This document shows, piece by piece, positions 3,450-48,756 of a DNA stretch of 64,000 nt. Position 1 is the first letter of the stretch, and each line of letters opens with the position of its first letter. The stretch is from Zygotorulaspora mrakii (taxonomy: Eukaryota > Ascomycota > Saccharomycetes > Saccharomycetales > Saccharomycetaceae): assembly GCF_013402915.1 (NCBI RefSeq), contig NC_050725.1, positions 496,001 through 560,000 on the forward strand. The letters are read 5' to 3'. Below the pieces are notes generated by a model. That model saw only the letters and a list, made by a program, of their open reading frames with translations, did not search any database and was not told where the DNA came from. A program made the translations under genes and the position numbers.

Positions 3450-3558
3450 GGGGCGAGCTGGGAATTGAACCCAGGGCCTCTCGCATGCTTGATCTTATAA
3501 TCCTCAGTGTACTGAAGATTCGCCCAAAGCGAGAATCATACCACTAGACCACACGCCC
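3450..3558 (-). tRNA. tRNA-Pro(UGG) with intron
   Basis: On the minus strand a 72-nt tRNA is split by a 37-nt intron (3486-3522). The acceptor GGGCGTG pairs with its 3' partner, the T arm contains GGTTCAATTCC, and the anticodon loop is TTTGGGT with anticodon TGG. The intron sits directly after position 37, the canonical eukaryotic position. S. cerevisiae tRNA-Pro(UGG) also has an intron at this site. A T-run just past the 3' end is the Pol III terminator. Confidence 0.96.
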
Positions 3559-27610: not shown

Positions 27611-29932
27611 ATGTCGTTAGCACCTTTGAAGACTGTAAATGATAAACAGCTTAATACCCGCCCCAACCTGGTTCATACCCCTGTAAAAGGTGTTAATGGA
27701 AGCCATGGTGTTGCTGCTGCTCCATATGGGACGACAGGGATAACTACGGCGACGACAACTGCCACTACAACTGGCGCTAATATCGGTGTTACTGGCGCGG
27801 GGCCAGATGGTAAAGAAAACTACCATGCTCCTACTCAGACCTACTTCCAGGGCAAAAAGACTCAAGCTCTGCATAATAACAGTAATAACTTGAACAATAA
27901 TGTTAATCCTAATAATAATAACAATAATATTAATAATAAAAGAGTCGAAGGTCATGGTGGTCAACCCGCACAAAGGAAAAAGAAGGAAAAATTGTCTGCT
28001 CTTTGTAAAACTCCACCTTCTTTAATAAAGACAAGAGGCAGAGATTATCATAGAGGTCACTTTCTGGGCGAAGGTGGCTTTGCTCGTTGTTTCCAGATAA
28101 GAGATGACAGTGGTAAGATATTTGCAGCAAAAACCGTTGCAAAACTATCGATAAAAACTGAAAAGACGAGGAAAAAACTCTTATCAGAGATTCAAATTCA
28201 CAAAAGCATGAAGCACGTTAACATTGTACAATTTATTGACTGTTTTGAGGATGAGACCAATGTTTATATTTTGTTAGAGATTTGTCCCAATGGATCTCTT
28301 ATGGAATTATTAAAGAAAAGAAAGGTTCTTACGGAACCTGAAGTCAGATTTTTCGCAACACAAATTTGTGGTGCGATAAAATATATGCATTCAAGAAGGG
28401 TTATACATAGAGATTTAAAGTTGGGAAACATTTTTTTTGATAAGGACTACAATCTCAAGATTGGTGATTTCGGTCTAGCTGCCGTACTTGCCAATGATAG
28501 GGAACGTAAATATACAGTATGTGGTACACCAAATTATATCGCCCCTGAAGTACTAATGGGTAAGCATTCTGGACATTCATACGAAGTTGATATATGGTCC
28601 ATTGGTGTAATGCTATATGCATTACTGGTTGGAAAACCGCCATTTCAAGCAAAGGATGTTAATACAATATATGAAAGGATTAAATGTTGTGATTTTGGTT
28701 TCCCAAAGGAAAAGCCAATATCAAATGAGGCGAAAGTTTTAATTCAAGACTTATTGTCATTGGATCCTCTTGAGAGACCATCATTAACCGAAGTAATGGA
28801 ATATGTATGGTTTAGGGGATTGTTTCCAGCATTTATTCAATCAGATGTAATGACTGAAGTACCACATTATGAGAATAAATTGACCACGGAAGAATCTTTA
28901 GAAAATTTAAAGATTTGTATGGAAAAGTCGGGTTTAATTGATAATAAAGGTCATAGAAATCAAAATGTTTCTTCATTTAAAGATAGTAGATCGGATCAAC
29001 AAAATTATCAGCAGCAACAAAAACAACAATGGTCTACTATTCTACCTGATTCGTTATCCCCCGGTGGGACAAAAAACAAATATAAAGAGGTTGTCGATTT
29101 AGAAGCACAAAAGAGACTAAATGATCTAGCAAGAGAGGCGAGAGTACGGAAAGCTCAGCAAGCTACAATAAAGAGGGATTTAATTGCTACATCGACGAAT
29201 TTAATCAAATCTGAGATATCATTGAGAATTCTCGCTAGTGAGTGTCATTTAACATTAAACGGCATATTAGAAGCAGAAGCACAAAAGAGAATGGGTGGAC
29301 TGCCGCATACCAGATTACCAAAAATCAAGCATCCAATCGTGGTAACAAAATGGGTAGATTACTCAAATAAACATGGATTCTCATATCAATTATCAACAGA
29401 GGATATTGGAGTCTTGTTTAATAATGGTACTACAGTATTGAGGTTAGCCGATGCTGAAGAATTTTGGTATATAAGCTATGATGAAAGAGAAGGTTGGGTA
29501 GCAAGTCATTATTTATTAGCAGAAAAACCAAGAGAGTTAACAAGGCATTTAGAGGTGGTTGATTTTTTTGCGAAATATATGAGGGCTAACTTAAGTCGAG
29601 TCTCAACATTCGTAAGAGAAGAGTACCATAAAGATGACGTATTCTTGAGAAGATATACAAGATTTAAACAATTTGTTATGTTCGAATTAAGCGATGGAAC
29701 ATTTCAATTCAATTTTAAAGATCACAACAAGTTAGCCGTTTCCGAAGGTGGTAAGCTATTGACATATATTTCTCCATCACATGAAAGTTTGACCTATCCA
29801 TTGGTTGAGTTATTAAAAATTGGAGAAATTCCAAGTTATCCAGATTGTAATCTCATGGAAAAGTTAATACTTATAAAAGAAGGCTTAAAGCAAAAAACAT
29901 CAATTGTTACTATAGAACAAAACCAACATTAA
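27611..29932 (+). CDS. CDC5: Polo-like kinase Cdc5
   Basis: 773 codons; S. cerevisiae Cdc5 has 705. It controls mitotic entry and exit, cohesin cleavage and cytokinesis. The degradation signals are kept: an RxxL D-box at 17-20 (RPNL) and a KEN box at 68-70. The kinase domain at about 150-405 shows LGEGGFARCFQ, HRDLKLGNIFF, DFGLAA and CGTPNYIAPEVL. Polo boxes follow in the C-terminal 200 residues (VTKWVDYSNKHGFSYQL onward). The extra length is mostly in the N-terminal region: a Thr-rich segment at 41-55 and an Asn-rich tract at about 90-110. In S. cerevisiae CDC5 is the first gene right of CEN13. Confidence 0.98.
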   Translation: MSLAPLKTVNDKQLNTRPNLVHTPVKGVNGSHGVAAAPYGTTGITTATTTATTTGANIGVTGAGPDGKENYHAPTQTYFQGKKTQALHNNSNNLNNNVNPNNNNNNINNKRVEGHGGQPAQRKKKEKLSALCKTPPSLIKTRGRDYHRGHFLGEGGFARCFQIRDDSGKIFAAKTVAKLSIKTEKTRKKLLSEIQIHKSMKHVNIVQFIDCFEDETNVYILLEICPNGSLMELLKKRKVLTEPEVRFFATQICGAIKYMHSRRVIHRDLKLGNIFFDKDYNLKIGDFGLAAVLANDRERKYTVCGTPNYIAPEVLMGKHSGHSYEVDIWSIGVMLYALLVGKPPFQAKDVNTIYERIKCCDFGFPKEKPISNEAKVLIQDLLSLDPLERPSLTEVMEYVWFRGLFPAFIQSDVMTEVPHYENKLTTEESLENLKICMEKSGLIDNKGHRNQNVSSFKDSRSDQQNYQQQQKQQWSTILPDSLSPGGTKNKYKEVVDLEAQKRLNDLAREARVRKAQQATIKRDLIATSTNLIKSEISLRILASECHLTLNGILEAEAQKRMGGLPHTRLPKIKHPIVVTKWVDYSNKHGFSYQLSTEDIGVLFNNGTTVLRLADAEEFWYISYDEREGWVASHYLLAEKPRELTRHLEVVDFFAKYMRANLSRVSTFVREEYHKDDVFLRRYTRFKQFVMFELSDGTFQFNFKDHNKLAVSEGGKLLTYISPSHESLTYPLVELLKIGEIPSYPDCNLMEKLILIKEGLKQKTSIVTIEQNQH

Positions 29933-39416: not shown

Positions 39417-41255
39417 ATGAAAGACACTGAGTTGTCTGAGGTCGTCTCACCTACATATTCTGCGGATGCCGAGAAGCAAATGGCTGCCGTGGCAGTCAAG
39501 CGTGATGTGGATAAATTCCGGAATTCAAAGAATTTGGTCATCAGAAAGACAGAAATTCTTGCTGCCCAATATGATAGATGGTACTACCATGTTCTGTTGT
39601 TGTTATCTGCATTCATCTGTGGATACGGCTATGGCTTAGACGGGAATATTCGTTACATATACACTGGTTATGCCACAAATTCTTACGGTGAGCATTCTTT
39701 ACTGTCGACTGTTAATGTTATCAATGCAGTTATAAGCGCAGCGTCACAAATTCTCTATGCTAGATTATCCGACGTGTTTGGTAGATTACCTTTGTTTATC
39801 ACTGCTGTTGTTTTTTATGTAGTGGGAACAGTAATTCAAAGTCAGGCCTATGATGTGCAAAGATACGCCGCCGGAGCCGTTTTTTATAACGCAGGATACG
39901 TTGGTGTGATCCTTATTTTATTACTGATTTTATCTGACTTCTCCTCGTTGAAGTGGAGATTGCTCTATCAATTTGCACCAACATGGCCCTTTATCATCAA
40001 TACCTGGATTTCTGGTAATATCACTTCGAGGGCAGACCCATCCGAAAACTGGTCGTGGGACGTGGGAATGTGGGCCTTTATATTTCCCTTAAGTTGTTTA
40101 CCATTAGTGCTGTGTATGGTTCATATGAGGATAAAGGCAAGAAAGTCAGAAGAATGGGTAATGCTGAAGGATGAAAAGTCTTTCTTTCAAGAACATGGAT
40201 TGATTAAATTATTGAAAGAACTTTTCTGGAAACTTGACCTGATTGGAGTCTTTTTCATGACATTATCACTTGGCTGTATTTTAGCGCCACTGACACTAGC
40301 GGGAGGTGTTAGCTCTCAGTGGAATAACTCTCATGTTATAGGTCCCTTCGTCCTAGGATGGGTTCTTCTTTTGATTTTGATTTATTGGGAATATAGGTGG
40401 GCAAGAGACCCTTTAATACCATACGATTTAGTTAAGGATCGTGCTGTCTGGTCTGCAATGGCTATCTCGTTTCTGATAGATTTCATATTTTACATGGCAT
40501 CTGATTATCTGTATACGGTTCTGTTGGTGGCCGTTAACGAGTCTGTGAAATCGGCAACCAGAATAAGCTCGCTTTCCTCATTTGTGTCTACTGTTAGTTC
40601 GCCATTCTTTGCACTCTGGATAACAAGATGTACAAGACTAAAGCCATATATCATAGCCGGATGCGGTCTATGGATGGTTGGGATGGGGTTGCTATATCAT
40701 TTTAGAGGTGGTGAGGGTTCTCATTCAGGTATCATTGGGGGTCTATGCGTGTGGGGTGTTGGCACGACGTTATTTACTTATCCTGTTAATGTTTCGGTTC
40801 AATCAGCAACTTCTCATGAGCATATGGCCACAGTTACGTCACTGAACTACACTCTATATCGTATTGGATCCGCTGTTGGCGCCGCTGTCTCCGGAGCTAT
40901 CTGGACTCAACGCTTATACAAGGAACTTTTACGAAACATAGGCGATGCCACATTAGCAGCAAATGCATATGCTCAACCCTACACTTTCATAGTGAGCTAT
41001 CCCTGGGGCACACCCGTTAGAGAGGCTGTGGTCAAGTCATATATGAACGTTCAAAGATTAGAAACCATGGTTGCGTTGATATTTACAGCGCCATTACTTT
41101 TCTTCTCCTTGTGCCTGAGAGATACCAAACTCACAAACAAAGTTGCTCATGAAAATCTCAAAGAAGGAGAATACATCGATATTGAAGATGATGATCCAAT
41201 TGCATCATGGTTCACTTCTAAGTGGAGTAAGGTGAGGTCCAAGAAAGAAAATTAA
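39417..41255 (+). CDS. ENB1: Siderophore-iron transporter, Enb1-like (MFS)
   Basis: 612 codons; S. cerevisiae Enb1 has 606. It is a member of the ARN subfamily of proton-driven siderophore importers. I count about 13-14 hydrophobic segments. The family hallmark AFICGYGYGLDGNIRYIYTGYA starts TM1. It is followed by ARLSDVFGRLPLFI, SSLKWRLLYQFAPTWPFIIN and, near the end, AVGAAVSGAIWTQRLYKELLRNIG. This pattern is closer to Enb1 (enterobactin) than to Arn1-3. In S. cerevisiae the family is subtelomeric; here it is internal, between PFA4 and IZH2, beside a tRNA and LTRs. The substrate is inferred. Confidence 0.85.
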   Translation: MKDTELSEVVSPTYSADAEKQMAAVAVKRDVDKFRNSKNLVIRKTEILAAQYDRWYYHVLLLLSAFICGYGYGLDGNIRYIYTGYATNSYGEHSLLSTVNVINAVISAASQILYARLSDVFGRLPLFITAVVFYVVGTVIQSQAYDVQRYAAGAVFYNAGYVGVILILLLILSDFSSLKWRLLYQFAPTWPFIINTWISGNITSRADPSENWSWDVGMWAFIFPLSCLPLVLCMVHMRIKARKSEEWVMLKDEKSFFQEHGLIKLLKELFWKLDLIGVFFMTLSLGCILAPLTLAGGVSSQWNNSHVIGPFVLGWVLLLILIYWEYRWARDPLIPYDLVKDRAVWSAMAISFLIDFIFYMASDYLYTVLLVAVNESVKSATRISSLSSFVSTVSSPFFALWITRCTRLKPYIIAGCGLWMVGMGLLYHFRGGEGSHSGIIGGLCVWGVGTTLFTYPVNVSVQSATSHEHMATVTSLNYTLYRIGSAVGAAVSGAIWTQRLYKELLRNIGDATLAANAYAQPYTFIVSYPWGTPVREAVVKSYMNVQRLETMVALIFTAPLLFFSLCLRDTKLTNKVAHENLKEGEYIDIEDDDPIASWFTSKWSKVRSKKEN

Positions 41256-44163: not shown

Positions 44164-45222
44164 ATGGAAGCAATAGATAAAGCGTGGAATGCTTCAAGCC
44201 AATATCCTTCCACTTCGGACCTTCTCAGCAATGCAGAGGAAAATGAGATTTCAACCATAGTTCTCCCATCCAAATTTATCAAGTGTTCAAGAACAGATTT
44301 AGCTATTTTGATTTCGAGAATGTTGACTTTTCTAATTCAGATAAATGATTCATCATCGAAAAGTTCAGATTGTGATGTATCGGCCCTAACAAGATTCCAT
44401 TCAAGGATACCACCGGACATATCAGTTTTCAACTATCTTATACGGCTGACTAAATATTCATCTTTGGAGCATTGCGTACTATTAACAGCTGTTTATTACA
44501 TTGATCTTTTATCCAGCGTATATCCAACGTTCACATTAAATTCACTGACTGTTCATAGATTTTTATTGACTGCAACTACCGTGGCAAGTAAAGGCTTGGT
44601 CGATTCTTTTTGCACAAATACACACTATGCAAAGGTAGGAGGTGTACATTGTAGCGAGTTAAATCTTTTAGAATGTGAATTCTTGAAAAAGATCAATTAT
44701 CGAATTATACCCAGAGATGAAAATATTGACCACTGTAAACTAGAAAAGAAACATGATATTTTTTCATTGCAAAAAGGATCAGATAAGGACTTAATCAATT
44801 CTTTGAAAATCAAAAACAACTTTCCTGAGAATGAGAGTAGTTACAATGTCCTCAACACATATTATAACAAGATTGTTCAACTAGTTGGTTCATTCGAATC
44901 TTCGCCTGACAAATCAAAAGTGATAAATTATACCTTACCTTATTTTATTCGAAACATCCATACGGAGGACATTGTTGATAAGCCACAACTCATAAACATT
45001 CATCCTTTTAAAGAGGCTATCCAAGATGTGAGTGGCATATCAAGAAAGAGAAATTTGGATGCAACTGTCGTTGAAGATTTAGATATGGTATCAGACCAAA
45101 ATGAAAAAGGTTACAACGATAAAACAATGGATAATGAAACTGTAGACTCGGAATCTAGTGTCTCCAAAAAACACATTAATCAACAGCGTCTTCCGAAAAT
45201 ATCGCATAGGACTGAACATTAA
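44164..45222 (+). CDS. PHO80: Pho85 cyclin Pho80
   Basis: 352 codons; S. cerevisiae Pho80 has 293. With Pho85 it phosphorylates Pho4 and represses the phosphate-starvation genes. The cyclin box at about 75-185 shows FHSRIPPDISVFNYLIRL, then HCVLLTAVYYIDLLS and VHRFLLTATTVASKGLVDSF. YAKVGGV and the ELNLLECEFLKKINYRI helix complete the Pho80 signature. The 150-residue C-terminal tail is polar and longer than in yeast. It transcribes toward the predicted centromere, as YOL001W does toward CEN15. Confidence 0.95.
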   Translation: MEAIDKAWNASSQYPSTSDLLSNAEENEISTIVLPSKFIKCSRTDLAILISRMLTFLIQINDSSSKSSDCDVSALTRFHSRIPPDISVFNYLIRLTKYSSLEHCVLLTAVYYIDLLSSVYPTFTLNSLTVHRFLLTATTVASKGLVDSFCTNTHYAKVGGVHCSELNLLECEFLKKINYRIIPRDENIDHCKLEKKHDIFSLQKGSDKDLINSLKIKNNFPENESSYNVLNTYYNKIVQLVGSFESSPDKSKVINYTLPYFIRNIHTEDIVDKPQLINIHPFKEAIQDVSGISRKRNLDATVVEDLDMVSDQNEKGYNDKTMDNETVDSESSVSKKHINQQRLPKISHRTEH

Positions 45223-45348
45223 GTAACTTATGCTAAATAATTAATCAACTGCTGTATAAGCTTTTCAAAATAATAATTGCATTTCATATAGTTTTCTTCT
45301 TTTTATTTTTTGAGGAAAATAAAAGCGTCTCTTTTCAAGTAACCTAGA

Positions 45349-45514
45349 TTTCTTGTTCGGAACTAAAACACATTAAATCTTGAAACTCAGCAGTCCTGCA
45401 TAAGCTAGTAAACTATTAATACAAAAAAGCTTAAAGCAGTAATTAAAATAAACATAGAAATATTTAATTAACTTATATTTTAAACGGTTTACTACTTATT
45501 TTATGTCATGTGAC
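45349..45514 (-). other. CEN: Predicted point centromere (CDEI-CDEII-CDEIII)
   Basis: Read on the minus strand: CDEI GTCACATG (45507-45514) matches RTCACRTG fully. An AT-rich spacer of 134 bp follows (45373-45506, about 78% A+T by my count). CDEIII is at 45349-45372, beginning TGTGTTTTAGTTCCGAA and ending in an A-rich flank; the essential CCG sits in TTCCGAA. No other CCGAA exists in the gap. The gap lies between PHO80 and RRP6, the neighbours of CEN15 in S. cerevisiae. CDC5 and YPT7, the neighbours of CEN13, lie on opposite sides. The spacer is less AT-rich than S. cerevisiae CDEII, especially near CDEIII, and longer than its roughly 80 bp; some other yeasts have longer ones. Confidence 0.75.
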
Positions 45515-45777: not shown

Positions 45778-48021
45778 ATGTCAGTCGACCCTAATGACTT
45801 GTTTCACAAAGTTGTGAGTACTGTTAGAGCTTCAACAGCTTTAGCTGCGAAAGATGTTGATTTTTGTCGCAGTCTAGACGTCGATGTTGCTGCTTCGATC
45901 GATAGCAATGCAACAGAGGTAATGGAAATGATCAATGGTGTCCTAACTTCAATAGATCCGCATTCTGATCAGCTAGAATCAGGCAAGGATAAATTGGAAG
46001 ACTCATGGAAGGACTTTAGTAATTTGATGGATGCCCTTTTCGAGAAATCAGACCGCTCCTTGGATATTTTAACCAAACGACATACGTATACTCAGGAAGC
46101 AAAGAGCCTTCAGTATCTTGATGAATCTCAAGACAAAGAGTCTAGTCCTCTGGTCCGTATTTCAAAGCCACAATTGCAATTTGAAAGACCAGTTGATAAT
46201 AGTGAGTCACATCCTTTTATTCCTCTGCTAGTTGAAAAGCCGCACTCAATGAAACCGCTTTCTGAATGCTTAAGATTAATTCCTGAAGAAGATGACATGC
46301 CGGAGCACTATTCACAGCCTTATTCGTACGAGATTGATCATCAAGAGTACGATGCCTCGGTTCTTGTCAAATCTGATCCTATACCTTCACAACCTTGGAA
46401 TGGCACTGAGGCCATCTGGGTGGATAATATGGAATCTCTACATGATCTGCTATTAGAATTGAAAAAATACAAAGAAATTGCAGTTGATTTGGAGCATCAT
46501 GATTATAGATCCTATTACGGTATAGTATGTTTGATGCAAATCAGCACCCGGGATAAAGACTATTTAATCGATACAATCTCTCTGCGCGAAAAGCTAAAGA
46601 TTTTGAATGAAGTTTTTGCAGATCCTCAAATTGTGAAGATTTTTCATGGTGCCTTCATGGACGTTATTTGGTTACAGAGAGATCTGGGTCTTTACGTTGT
46701 TAGTCTTTTCGATACATATCATGCATCCAGGGCAGTAGGGCTTCCGAGATTCAGCCTGGCATATCTGTTGGAAAAGTACTCTAATTTCAAAACGTCTAAA
46801 AAATATCAGCTGGCAGATTGGAGGGTTAGGCCTCTTCCTAAGGCAATGGCAGCCTACGCTAGATCTGATACTCATTTTCTTCTAAATATTTACGACCAAT
46901 TGAGGAACCAGCTAATTCAAGAGAACAAATTGGCAGGTGTACTATTTGAGTCTCGAAAAGTTGCTAAAAGAAGATTTGAATATGCGGCTTATAGACCCAA
47001 AATTCCACTTGCATCTGTGTATTCTTCTGCAGAAAAGGCAAATGCTTGGCAAACATTAATGTATCAGTATAACATACCACCAGAGAAGGAAATGTTACTT
47101 AAAAAGTTGTATGAGTGGAGAGATATGATCTCTAGAAGAGATGATGAATCTTCAAGGTTCGTTATGCCAAATCAATTACTGGTCGCACTTGTTTCTTATG
47201 CACCTGTTGATTCGATTGGGGTTGTTTCTGCAAGTAATATGATGTCTGATCATGTTCGGTCCAATTCTAAAGAAATTGCAAATCTAATAAGAAAAACTGA
47301 AGAGTTACCGGGTTCCAATAGTATTCACCAAAGCCCAAAATTTAAGCAATCTAGAAGCAATATTGATATAGTCAAGGTTTTAACAATTACCCAGGTCCAG
47401 CAGAAAGTGTCGCAATTTAAAACTCTCTCTGAGAGTCATGCATCTAAAAATTCTATTGATACTGCTGGAAGTAGCTCACTTTTGCTTGGCGATATTTTAT
47501 CCAAAAATTACGCTGCCTCTGAATATCTGGATGGAAGAGCTATAGAAATTACAGATAGCCAATTAAAACACAGAGCACTTGAACCACTAGCAAAACTAAG
47601 CGCATTCGATAATGCTACCTCTTATACAGTGTCGGTAGTTGCAAAGTCAGAAAACTCCGAGAATGAGAAAAAACAACCCAATCATATAACGAAAGAGGAT
47701 AGGAATGCCACCTCAAATGAAACAGACTCAAAGAAACCTGAGATGAAGGAAAATATGGATGAGATTGTAACATTGAAAGTTTCTAAAGGTAGCGGGAAGA
47801 AGTTTCGTGGCAATGATCTTTCTAAGAGCTCTACTGTAGACGTCATTGACTATAACAAGAGCGAAAAAATTCTTCAGAAAAACAGTGGCGAAAGGAATAA
47901 AAATGCCAGGAAAAGAAGTTTTGATCCATATTCAGCTCCGAATAATTCATCTGGGGCACCCAAGACACCAAAAAGAAGAAAGGCAACCAATAGAGGTAAA
48001 AGTGCATCTTTCAAAAAATAA
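45778..48021 (+). CDS. RRP6: Nuclear exosome 3'-5' exonuclease Rrp6
   Basis: 747 codons; S. cerevisiae Rrp6 has 733. It trims 5.8S rRNA and snoRNA ends and degrades nuclear transcripts. An N-terminal PMC2NT region pairs with Rrp47. The DEDD-Y exonuclease domain at about 215-390 has VDLEHHDYRSYYG (Asp and Glu), FHGAFMDVIWLQRDLG, and YARSDTHFLL with the catalytic Tyr and Asp. An HRDC domain at about 425-510 includes ANAWQTLMYQYNIPPEKEMLLKKLYEWRD and FVMPNQLLVALV. The C-terminal tail is Lys-rich with nuclear-localisation clusters. It transcribes away from the centromere like YOR001W. Confidence 0.97.
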   Translation: MSVDPNDLFHKVVSTVRASTALAAKDVDFCRSLDVDVAASIDSNATEVMEMINGVLTSIDPHSDQLESGKDKLEDSWKDFSNLMDALFEKSDRSLDILTKRHTYTQEAKSLQYLDESQDKESSPLVRISKPQLQFERPVDNSESHPFIPLLVEKPHSMKPLSECLRLIPEEDDMPEHYSQPYSYEIDHQEYDASVLVKSDPIPSQPWNGTEAIWVDNMESLHDLLLELKKYKEIAVDLEHHDYRSYYGIVCLMQISTRDKDYLIDTISLREKLKILNEVFADPQIVKIFHGAFMDVIWLQRDLGLYVVSLFDTYHASRAVGLPRFSLAYLLEKYSNFKTSKKYQLADWRVRPLPKAMAAYARSDTHFLLNIYDQLRNQLIQENKLAGVLFESRKVAKRRFEYAAYRPKIPLASVYSSAEKANAWQTLMYQYNIPPEKEMLLKKLYEWRDMISRRDDESSRFVMPNQLLVALVSYAPVDSIGVVSASNMMSDHVRSNSKEIANLIRKTEELPGSNSIHQSPKFKQSRSNIDIVKVLTITQVQQKVSQFKTLSESHASKNSIDTAGSSSLLLGDILSKNYAASEYLDGRAIEITDSQLKHRALEPLAKLSAFDNATSYTVSVVAKSENSENEKKQPNHITKEDRNATSNETDSKKPEMKENMDEIVTLKVSKGSGKKFRGNDLSKSSTVDVIDYNKSEKILQKNSGERNKNARKRSFDPYSAPNNSSGAPKTPKRRKATNRGKSASFKK

Positions 48022-48129: not shown

Positions 48130-48756
48130 TCAACAACTACACGAACTTGGTTCGCCATCCAATTGGATGTTAATTGCGTCATTGAAATCTTCTTCAAAAG
48201 CATCGGCATCCGCCTGATTTTGTTGCAAAGCACTACGAGCAATCTCCTCGAATGCAGTATCAACATTGATCGCATTCTTAGCACTGGTTAAAAACATAGG
48301 AACGTTACCCAAAGATTTCGCTAAATCTTGAACGGATTTCAGACTAACGACTTTTTTAGATTCATCGACATCAACTTTATTACCTAATATCACGAATGGA
48401 AACGTCTCTGGGGATGAAACGTTGGCGTGAACAAGAAACTCATCTCTCCAGGATTTGATACTTTCAAAAGATTTTGCATTCGTAACATCATAAACTAAAA
48501 CGCAGCAATCTGCACCTCGATAGAATGCTACACCAAGTGATTGGAATCTTTCCTGCCCTGCAGTGTCCCAAACTTGCATTGTGGCCACTTTATTCCCATC
48601 AACTTCTACCTCCTTAGTTAAAAAGTCAGCACCGATAGTGGCCTTATATTGTTGGGAATATTTATCATTAACATAACGATGCATTAATGATGTTTTGCCG
48701 ACACCGGAGTCGCCTAGCACAATCACCTTAAGTATATTTTTCTTTCTGGAGGACAT
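48130..48756 (-). CDS. YPT7: Rab7-family GTPase Ypt7
   Basis: 208 codons, the same length as S. cerevisiae Ypt7. It directs homotypic vacuole fusion and late endosome-vacuole traffic through the HOPS complex. GTPase motifs are complete: P-loop GDSGVGKTS, effector segment [14 protein letters not shown] (Rab7-type), [17 protein letters not shown] and TSAKN. The protein ends in CSC, the double geranylgeranylation signal. In S. cerevisiae YPT7 (YML001W) is the first gene left of CEN13. Confidence 0.98.

Follow-up and report, generated by a model that had tools for sequence, protein, structure and literature searches.

The region analyzed here is a window of 64,000 nucleotides (G000:C7:496001-560000) from the genome of Zygotorulaspora mrakii, the assembly of which comprises 10,450,160 bases in nine contigs. 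Contigs C1 to C8 range from 1,813,878 down to 885,376 bases, and C9, with 37,644 bases by subtraction from the assembly total, is presumably mitochondrial. The locus of interest is the 555-bp, 69% AT gap between the stop codon of PHO80 (44164-45222, plus strand; PDB 2pk9, E 1.1e-90; Pfam Cyclin) and the start codon of RRP6 (45778-48021, plus strand; PDB 6ft6, E 8.9e-226). YPT7 is located at 48130-48756 on the minus strand (PDB 1ky2, E 3.3e-109), and the polo kinase gene CDC5 at 27611-29932 on the plus strand (PDB 6mf4, E 1e-168; Pkinase and POLO_box domains); these four genes were identified by the closest PDB chain in sequence. Domain matches revealed Sin3, topoisomerase I, DHHC and HlyIII-type genes on the left side, and Alg6/8, SGTA-dimer and VPS9-ankyrin genes on the right side. 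A gene for an MFS/TRI12-type transporter (39417-41255, plus strand) lies between the DHHC and HlyIII-type genes, and no such gene is known at the corresponding place in Saccharomyces cerevisiae. In addition, a 109-base tRNA was matched by Rfam at 3450-3558 (minus strand) and not by ARAGORN in bacterial mode, and thus probably contains an intron. As for the relatives of this yeast, the closest RRP6 among the 120 listed of 2747 is 62% identical, and the named species among these 120 include Z. rouxii (55%) and T. globosa (53%). The window RRP6 and its closest relative were grouped in a 23-row tree with a support of 100/100, and this pair adjoined Torulaspora and two further rows with weaker support (94/92).

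The PHO80-RRP6 gap contains no ATG-started open reading frame of at least 40 amino acids. It harbors a 168-base element on the minus strand, at 45347-45514 of the window (C7:541347-541514), which is divided into CDEI (45507-45514, GTCACATG), a predicted Cbf1 site; CDEII (45373-45506), the predicted wrap of a Cse4 nucleosome; and CDEIII (45347-45372, 26 bp, TGTGTTTTAGTTCCGAACAAGAAATC), a predicted CBF3 site with a TTCCGAA core. PHO80 flanks the CDEIII side and RRP6 the CDEI side. The core part of CDEIII, TGTGTTTTAGTTCCGAA, spans 45356-45372 on the minus strand, and its CCGAA is at 45356-45360. An earlier note had predicted a point centromere in this gap from the letters alone, and all the letters it quoted, for both CDEI and the TTCCGAA-core CDEIII on the minus strand, are correct. 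The spacer that it put at 134 bp and about 78% AT is exactly 134 bp long with a measured AT content of 77.6%, and its statement that the 555-bp gap has only one CCGAA also held in both parts, since a single CCGAA/TTCGG was found with both strands counted, at 45356. The two weak points that it conceded, a moderate AT content and a CDEIII-proximal stretch of 45 bp that is not very AT-rich, are real as well: 77.6% is the lowest CDEII value of the eight elements described below, near the 76% floor given by Gordon et al. (2011; PMC3141009), and the 45-bp stretch has 67% AT. Both features are common to the element on C4 (78.1% for CDEII, 69% for its last 45 bp), and partly to that on C5 (73% for the last 45 bp).

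The gene orders at the S. cerevisiae counterparts are PHO80 / CEN15 / RRP6 and YPT7 / CEN13 / CDC5, with PHO80 and RRP6 both on the W strand. The gene order of the window fits an unduplicated arrangement in which the CEN15 and CEN13 regions are interleaved, and CDC5, the neighbor of CEN13 on its other side, is 15.4 kb from the CDEIII end of the element. The flanking genes agree with the earlier claim that both the PHO80/RRP6 and CDC5/YPT7 pairs bracket this site. With respect to orientation, the element lies on the minus strand between two plus-strand genes, as does CEN15, which is listed as 15- in Table 1 of Gordon et al. (PMC3141009). In the same study, the ancestral CEN6 has two S. cerevisiae descendants, CEN13 and CEN15, and the window element has both the flanking genes of the arrangement before the whole-genome duplication and the minus orientation expected of an Anc_CEN6 orthologue.

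Motif searches were performed in the window and in the whole genome. The pattern TCACRTG-N(120-150)-TTCCGAA has one match in the window and an average of 0.05 matches in shuffled windows. Since matches turned up in 5 of the 100 shuffles, the motif by itself carries only modest weight. In the whole genome, TCACRTG-N(130-160)-TTCCGAA yielded nine matches, five with an AT-rich spacer of 0.77-0.85 (one each on C2, C3, C4, C6 and C7) and four with a spacer of 0.61-0.67. The relaxed pattern CACRTG-N(125-155)-TTCCGAA yielded 20 matches and added an element on C5, the other 14 having at most 0.66 AT; the loosest pattern yielded 42, for 30 of which the spacer AT was determined, the remaining 12 including the C6 and C7 elements. 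Across the 64 loci obtained with the first four patterns, no spacer outside the elements exceeded the 0.72 AT of L025. From the CDEIII side, TTCGG-N9-ACA-N(115-145)-CAYGTG had eight matches in the genome, six of which are the elements (the other two spacers have 61% and 50% AT), and its reversed control had none (0 + 0). A Saccharomyces-like CDEII length of 60-90 bp was also tried and rejected, as its five genome matches had spacers of 0.39-0.70 AT and none was on C7. The two relaxed searches (42 and 20 matches), which found the C5 element, did not find those on C1 and C8, which escaped because their CDEI deviates. Taken together, motif, AT content, spacing and synteny are well beyond chance.

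One like element was found on each of the eight large contigs, six by motif search and two (C1 and C8) by synteny. The elements are located at about 1034.0 kb on C1, 814.6 kb on C2, 451.0 kb on C3, 735.8 kb on C4, 794.6 kb on C5, 521.5 kb on C6, 541.4 kb on C7 and 372.8 kb on C8. Their orientation relative to their neighbors, judged by eye with the S. cerevisiae centromere signs of Table 1 of Gordon et al. (PMC3141009), is that of S. cerevisiae in all eight cases. For the six motif-found elements, neighboring genes were identified by Pfam and matched to the ancestral centromeres in the same table, the numbers of which are used here. The C2 element (CDEII 136 bp, AT 0.838) corresponds to CEN1 by a DOM34-type eRF1 protein and RER1, and the C3 element (L068 4845-5014; 136 bp, 0.846) to CEN3 by RMD1-type, neutral trehalase and RanBP1 genes. 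The C4 element (137 bp, 0.781) corresponds to CEN2 by a MET14-type APS kinase, a VPS1-type dynamin and poly(A) polymerase, and the C6 element (133 bp, 0.850) to CEN7 by SGN1-type RRM, IRC22-type TRAP-alpha and ankyrin-BTB genes. At the C5 element (135 bp, 0.822), assigned to CEN4, only an ERG26-type 3-beta-HSD gene was recognized, and two other open reading frames tested there had no Pfam match. The window element (134 bp, 0.776) corresponds to CEN6 by PHO80, RRP6, YPT7 and CDC5. These six assignments left over CEN5 and CEN8, and contigs C1 and C8. The genome has two Dynamin_M genes, the VPS1-type one on C4 and a second on C1, which is taken as DNM1, and a single Hat1_N match, on C8. Synteny therefore predicted where the elements of C1 and C8 should lie, and both were indeed located next to the expected genes, the DNM1-type gene (CEN5; L072 419-589; 135 bp, with 134 or 137 also readable; AT 0.859) and the HAT1-type gene (CEN8; L074 572-739; 134 bp, 0.858). 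Only one of the eight CCGAA words in the C1 locus and one of the six in the C8 locus have AT-rich upstream sequence (0.83 and 0.84), and these are the elements. The neighbors accordingly fit the eight ancestral centromeres, those of C1, C5 and C8 by a single neighbor each.

The eight elements, six of which were aligned by MAFFT in one orientation, have near-fixed spacing. The earlier note had proposed comparing the consensus at the other centromeres, and the other seven elements share a TTCCGAA-type CDEIII and a CDEII of 133-137 bp, the range of all eight. TTCCGAA is present in all eight, and TGT occupies CDEIII positions 1-3 in seven, with AGT in C1. CDEI is GTCACATG in three, contains TCACATG in five and CACATG in six. 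The two exceptions have a normal CDEII length and TTCCGAA: the CDEI of C8 is GTCAGGTG, with CAGGTG, and that of C1 is TGCATGTG or GGTGCATG, a reversed E-box (CATGTG) of ambiguous register. In terms of the published consensus NNCAVBTG, CATGTG departs from it, whereas CAGGTG is within it but differs from CACATG, which the other six share. These deviating CDEIs are the only mildly unusual point of the set. A drifting CDEI beside a fixed CDEIII and spacing could mean that this lineage relies less strictly on Cbf1, or on the orientation of Cbf1, with single-chromosome variants from which a centromere transition might start, an idea that we regard as rather unlikely. Two smaller observations concern C3: its element lies on the opposite strand to the others (in the five-element set) and its TTCCGAA is followed by G, a position occupied by C in six of the eight, and a 118-amino-acid open reading frame without a Pfam match (L068 4944-5300) overlaps it.

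The elements were also scored by models trained without the site in question. With the remaining seven elements as training set, the window site scored 44.0, and only one of the eight held-out scores is lower; the five other motif-found elements, each left out, scored 39.9-60.4, and C1 and C8 scored 49.7 and 53.6 with the model from the six motif-found elements. The best score in 40 first-order Markov sequences of 64 kb was 16.2, and the best in 53 other loci (168,207 bases), all taken from around related motifs except L075, which surrounds CEP3, was 14.3. One caveat is that the elements were already known when the length range and the AT term of the model were set. Second-best places that adjoin or overlap the elements scored above these controls. 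The one in the window (17.2) overlaps the near-palindromic TTCSGAA of CDEIII on the other strand, which is due to TTCCGAA being nearly palindromic. The second-best places in the C1, C2 and C3 loci scored 23.2, 22.7 and 16.1, that of C3 being 4.3 kb from its element.

A CDEIII-type centromere needs Cep3 and Ndc10, and the genome fits in this respect, as it has a gene for Cep3 (E 4.3e-186) and one for Ndc10 on C2 (E 9.4e-100), so that the CBF3 proteins of a conventional point centromere are probably encoded. A second, weak NDC10_II match was observed at C1:1107451-1108083, in two pieces within one 852-amino-acid frame, which may be distantly related to Ndc10 or to its DNA-binding fold. The sister elements, the neighboring genes, the orientation, the score of 44.0 and the presence of Cep3 and Ndc10 together indicate that the window element very probably serves as the C7 point centromere, still placed at Anc_CEN6 and homologous to S. 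cerevisiae CEN13 and CEN15. The suggestion of the earlier note, an ancestral centromere kept at its location before the whole-genome duplication, is thereby strengthened. By homology with S. cerevisiae, a Cbf1 dimer would bind CDEI (GTCACATG), and the CBF3 complex (Ndc10, Cep3 and partners) would bind CDEIII via its CCGAA core. A single Cse4 (CENP-A) nucleosome would then be expected on the 134-bp AT-rich CDEII, and the kinetochore would presumably be built on it, as in that yeast.

Two other explanations have to be weighed against this one. The element could be a relic, that is, an ancestral sequence kept in place while C7 now uses another centromere after a fusion or relocation; centromere deaths after telomere-to-telomere fusions have been reported by Gordon et al. 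(PMC3141009), and the window CDEII is the least AT-rich of the set, with the low held-out score given above. We consider this highly improbable, because no other form of CDEI is as common among the eight and the CDEIII retains both TGT and TTCCGAA, the other C7 matches with a determined AT content (L013, L014 and L066) reach only 0.50-0.67, and eight large contigs with one element each leave no element to spare.

The remaining explanation, a chance pairing of a Cbf1-type E-box in the RRP6 promoter with an unrelated TTCCGAA that happens to be suitably spaced, is the least probable of all. CACATG and CACGTG boxes do double as transcription factor sites, and TCACRTG-N(130-160)-TTCCGAA has the four matches elsewhere in the genome without an AT-rich spacer. 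However, the predicted gap, the orientation, the spacing and the CDEIII context would all have to coincide, and the leave-one-out score of 44.0 faces at most 16.2 in random sequence. A C7 centromere at Anc_CEN6 therefore remains the preferred explanation.

As a member of its class, the predicted C7 centromere can be compared with 102 conventional point centromeres of Saccharomycetaceae (PMC3141009) and with the PCAn atlas of 138 species published in 2025 (PMC12925627). The consensus in the former compilation has an 8-bp CDEI (NNCAVBTG) and a CDEII of 76-98% AT (PMC3141009); GTCACATG agrees with this CDEI, TGTGTTTTAGTTCCGAACAAGAAATC is a 26-bp CDEIII with the invariant CCGAA, and 77.6% is within the AT range, near its low end. 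The CDEII of 134 bp conforms to the uniformity of length within a genome, and there are eight elements on eight large contigs, provided that the contigs are taken as chromosomes, a count in which an extra element with a deviating CDEI could be missed. The 8-bp CDEI, the 26-bp CCGAA-containing CDEIII and the AT-rich CDEII of near-fixed length are those of conventional Saccharomycetaceae point centromeres, and nothing sets the window element apart from them. It has the same CDEI-CDEII-CDEIII build as S. cerevisiae CEN15 and CEN13 and the same neighbors. Its CDEII is longer, at 134 bp compared with about 85 bp in S. cerevisiae, and a CDEII of about 135 bp falls within the published span, which runs from roughly 50 to almost 200 bp (PMC12925627). 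The unconventional point centromeres of Naumovozyma are likewise short and sequence-defined; they are described as being off syntenic positions and without regular CDEI and CDEIII (PMC12925627), whereas the window element has regular CDEI and CDEIII and is at its syntenic position. It is a fine but unremarkable representative of baker's-yeast centromeres.

Earlier publications cover point centromeres, the positions that they occupied in the ancestor and the uniformity of CDEII within a genome (PMC3141009; PMC12925627), and centromere positions are reported to be conserved even between yeast orders (PMC12711049). One paper counts Zygotorulaspora mrakii with the "less well characterized" genomes, which it mentions following those whose centromere locations are known (PMC9731477). 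Our literature search found no paper joining three of the terms CDEIII, CDEII, PHO80 and RRP6, and the 2025 atlas does not mention Zygotorulaspora in its main text (PMC12925627); as the species list of the atlas is in supplementary files, this genome may already be catalogued there. The predicted window centromere reveals no biology of a new kind. The complete predicted set, in which all eight ancestral centromeres retain their place and orientation in a lineage beside Torulaspora and Zygosaccharomyces, will be useful for comparisons of karyotype and CDEII length and for centromeric plasmids for Z. mrakii.

Several homing endonuclease-type (Hom_end) matches were also observed. Two of them, the genes at C3:1040783-1041109 and C3:1043603-1044214, are located roughly 5 and 2 kb, respectively, downstream of an FBA1-type aldolase gene (C3:1045942-1046964), the same place as the WHO elements reported for Torulaspora and Zygotorulaspora mrakii, where a WHO gene pair in the latter and WHO clusters in the former are located downstream of FBA1 (PMC7282813). 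Further Hom_end matches are found at C7:271609-272223, C7:197910-198539 and C1:410762-411019; the latter two sit in a 594- and a 298-amino-acid frame, and that at C7:271609-272223, in a 1069-amino-acid open frame, is perhaps a VDE-type intein in VMA1.
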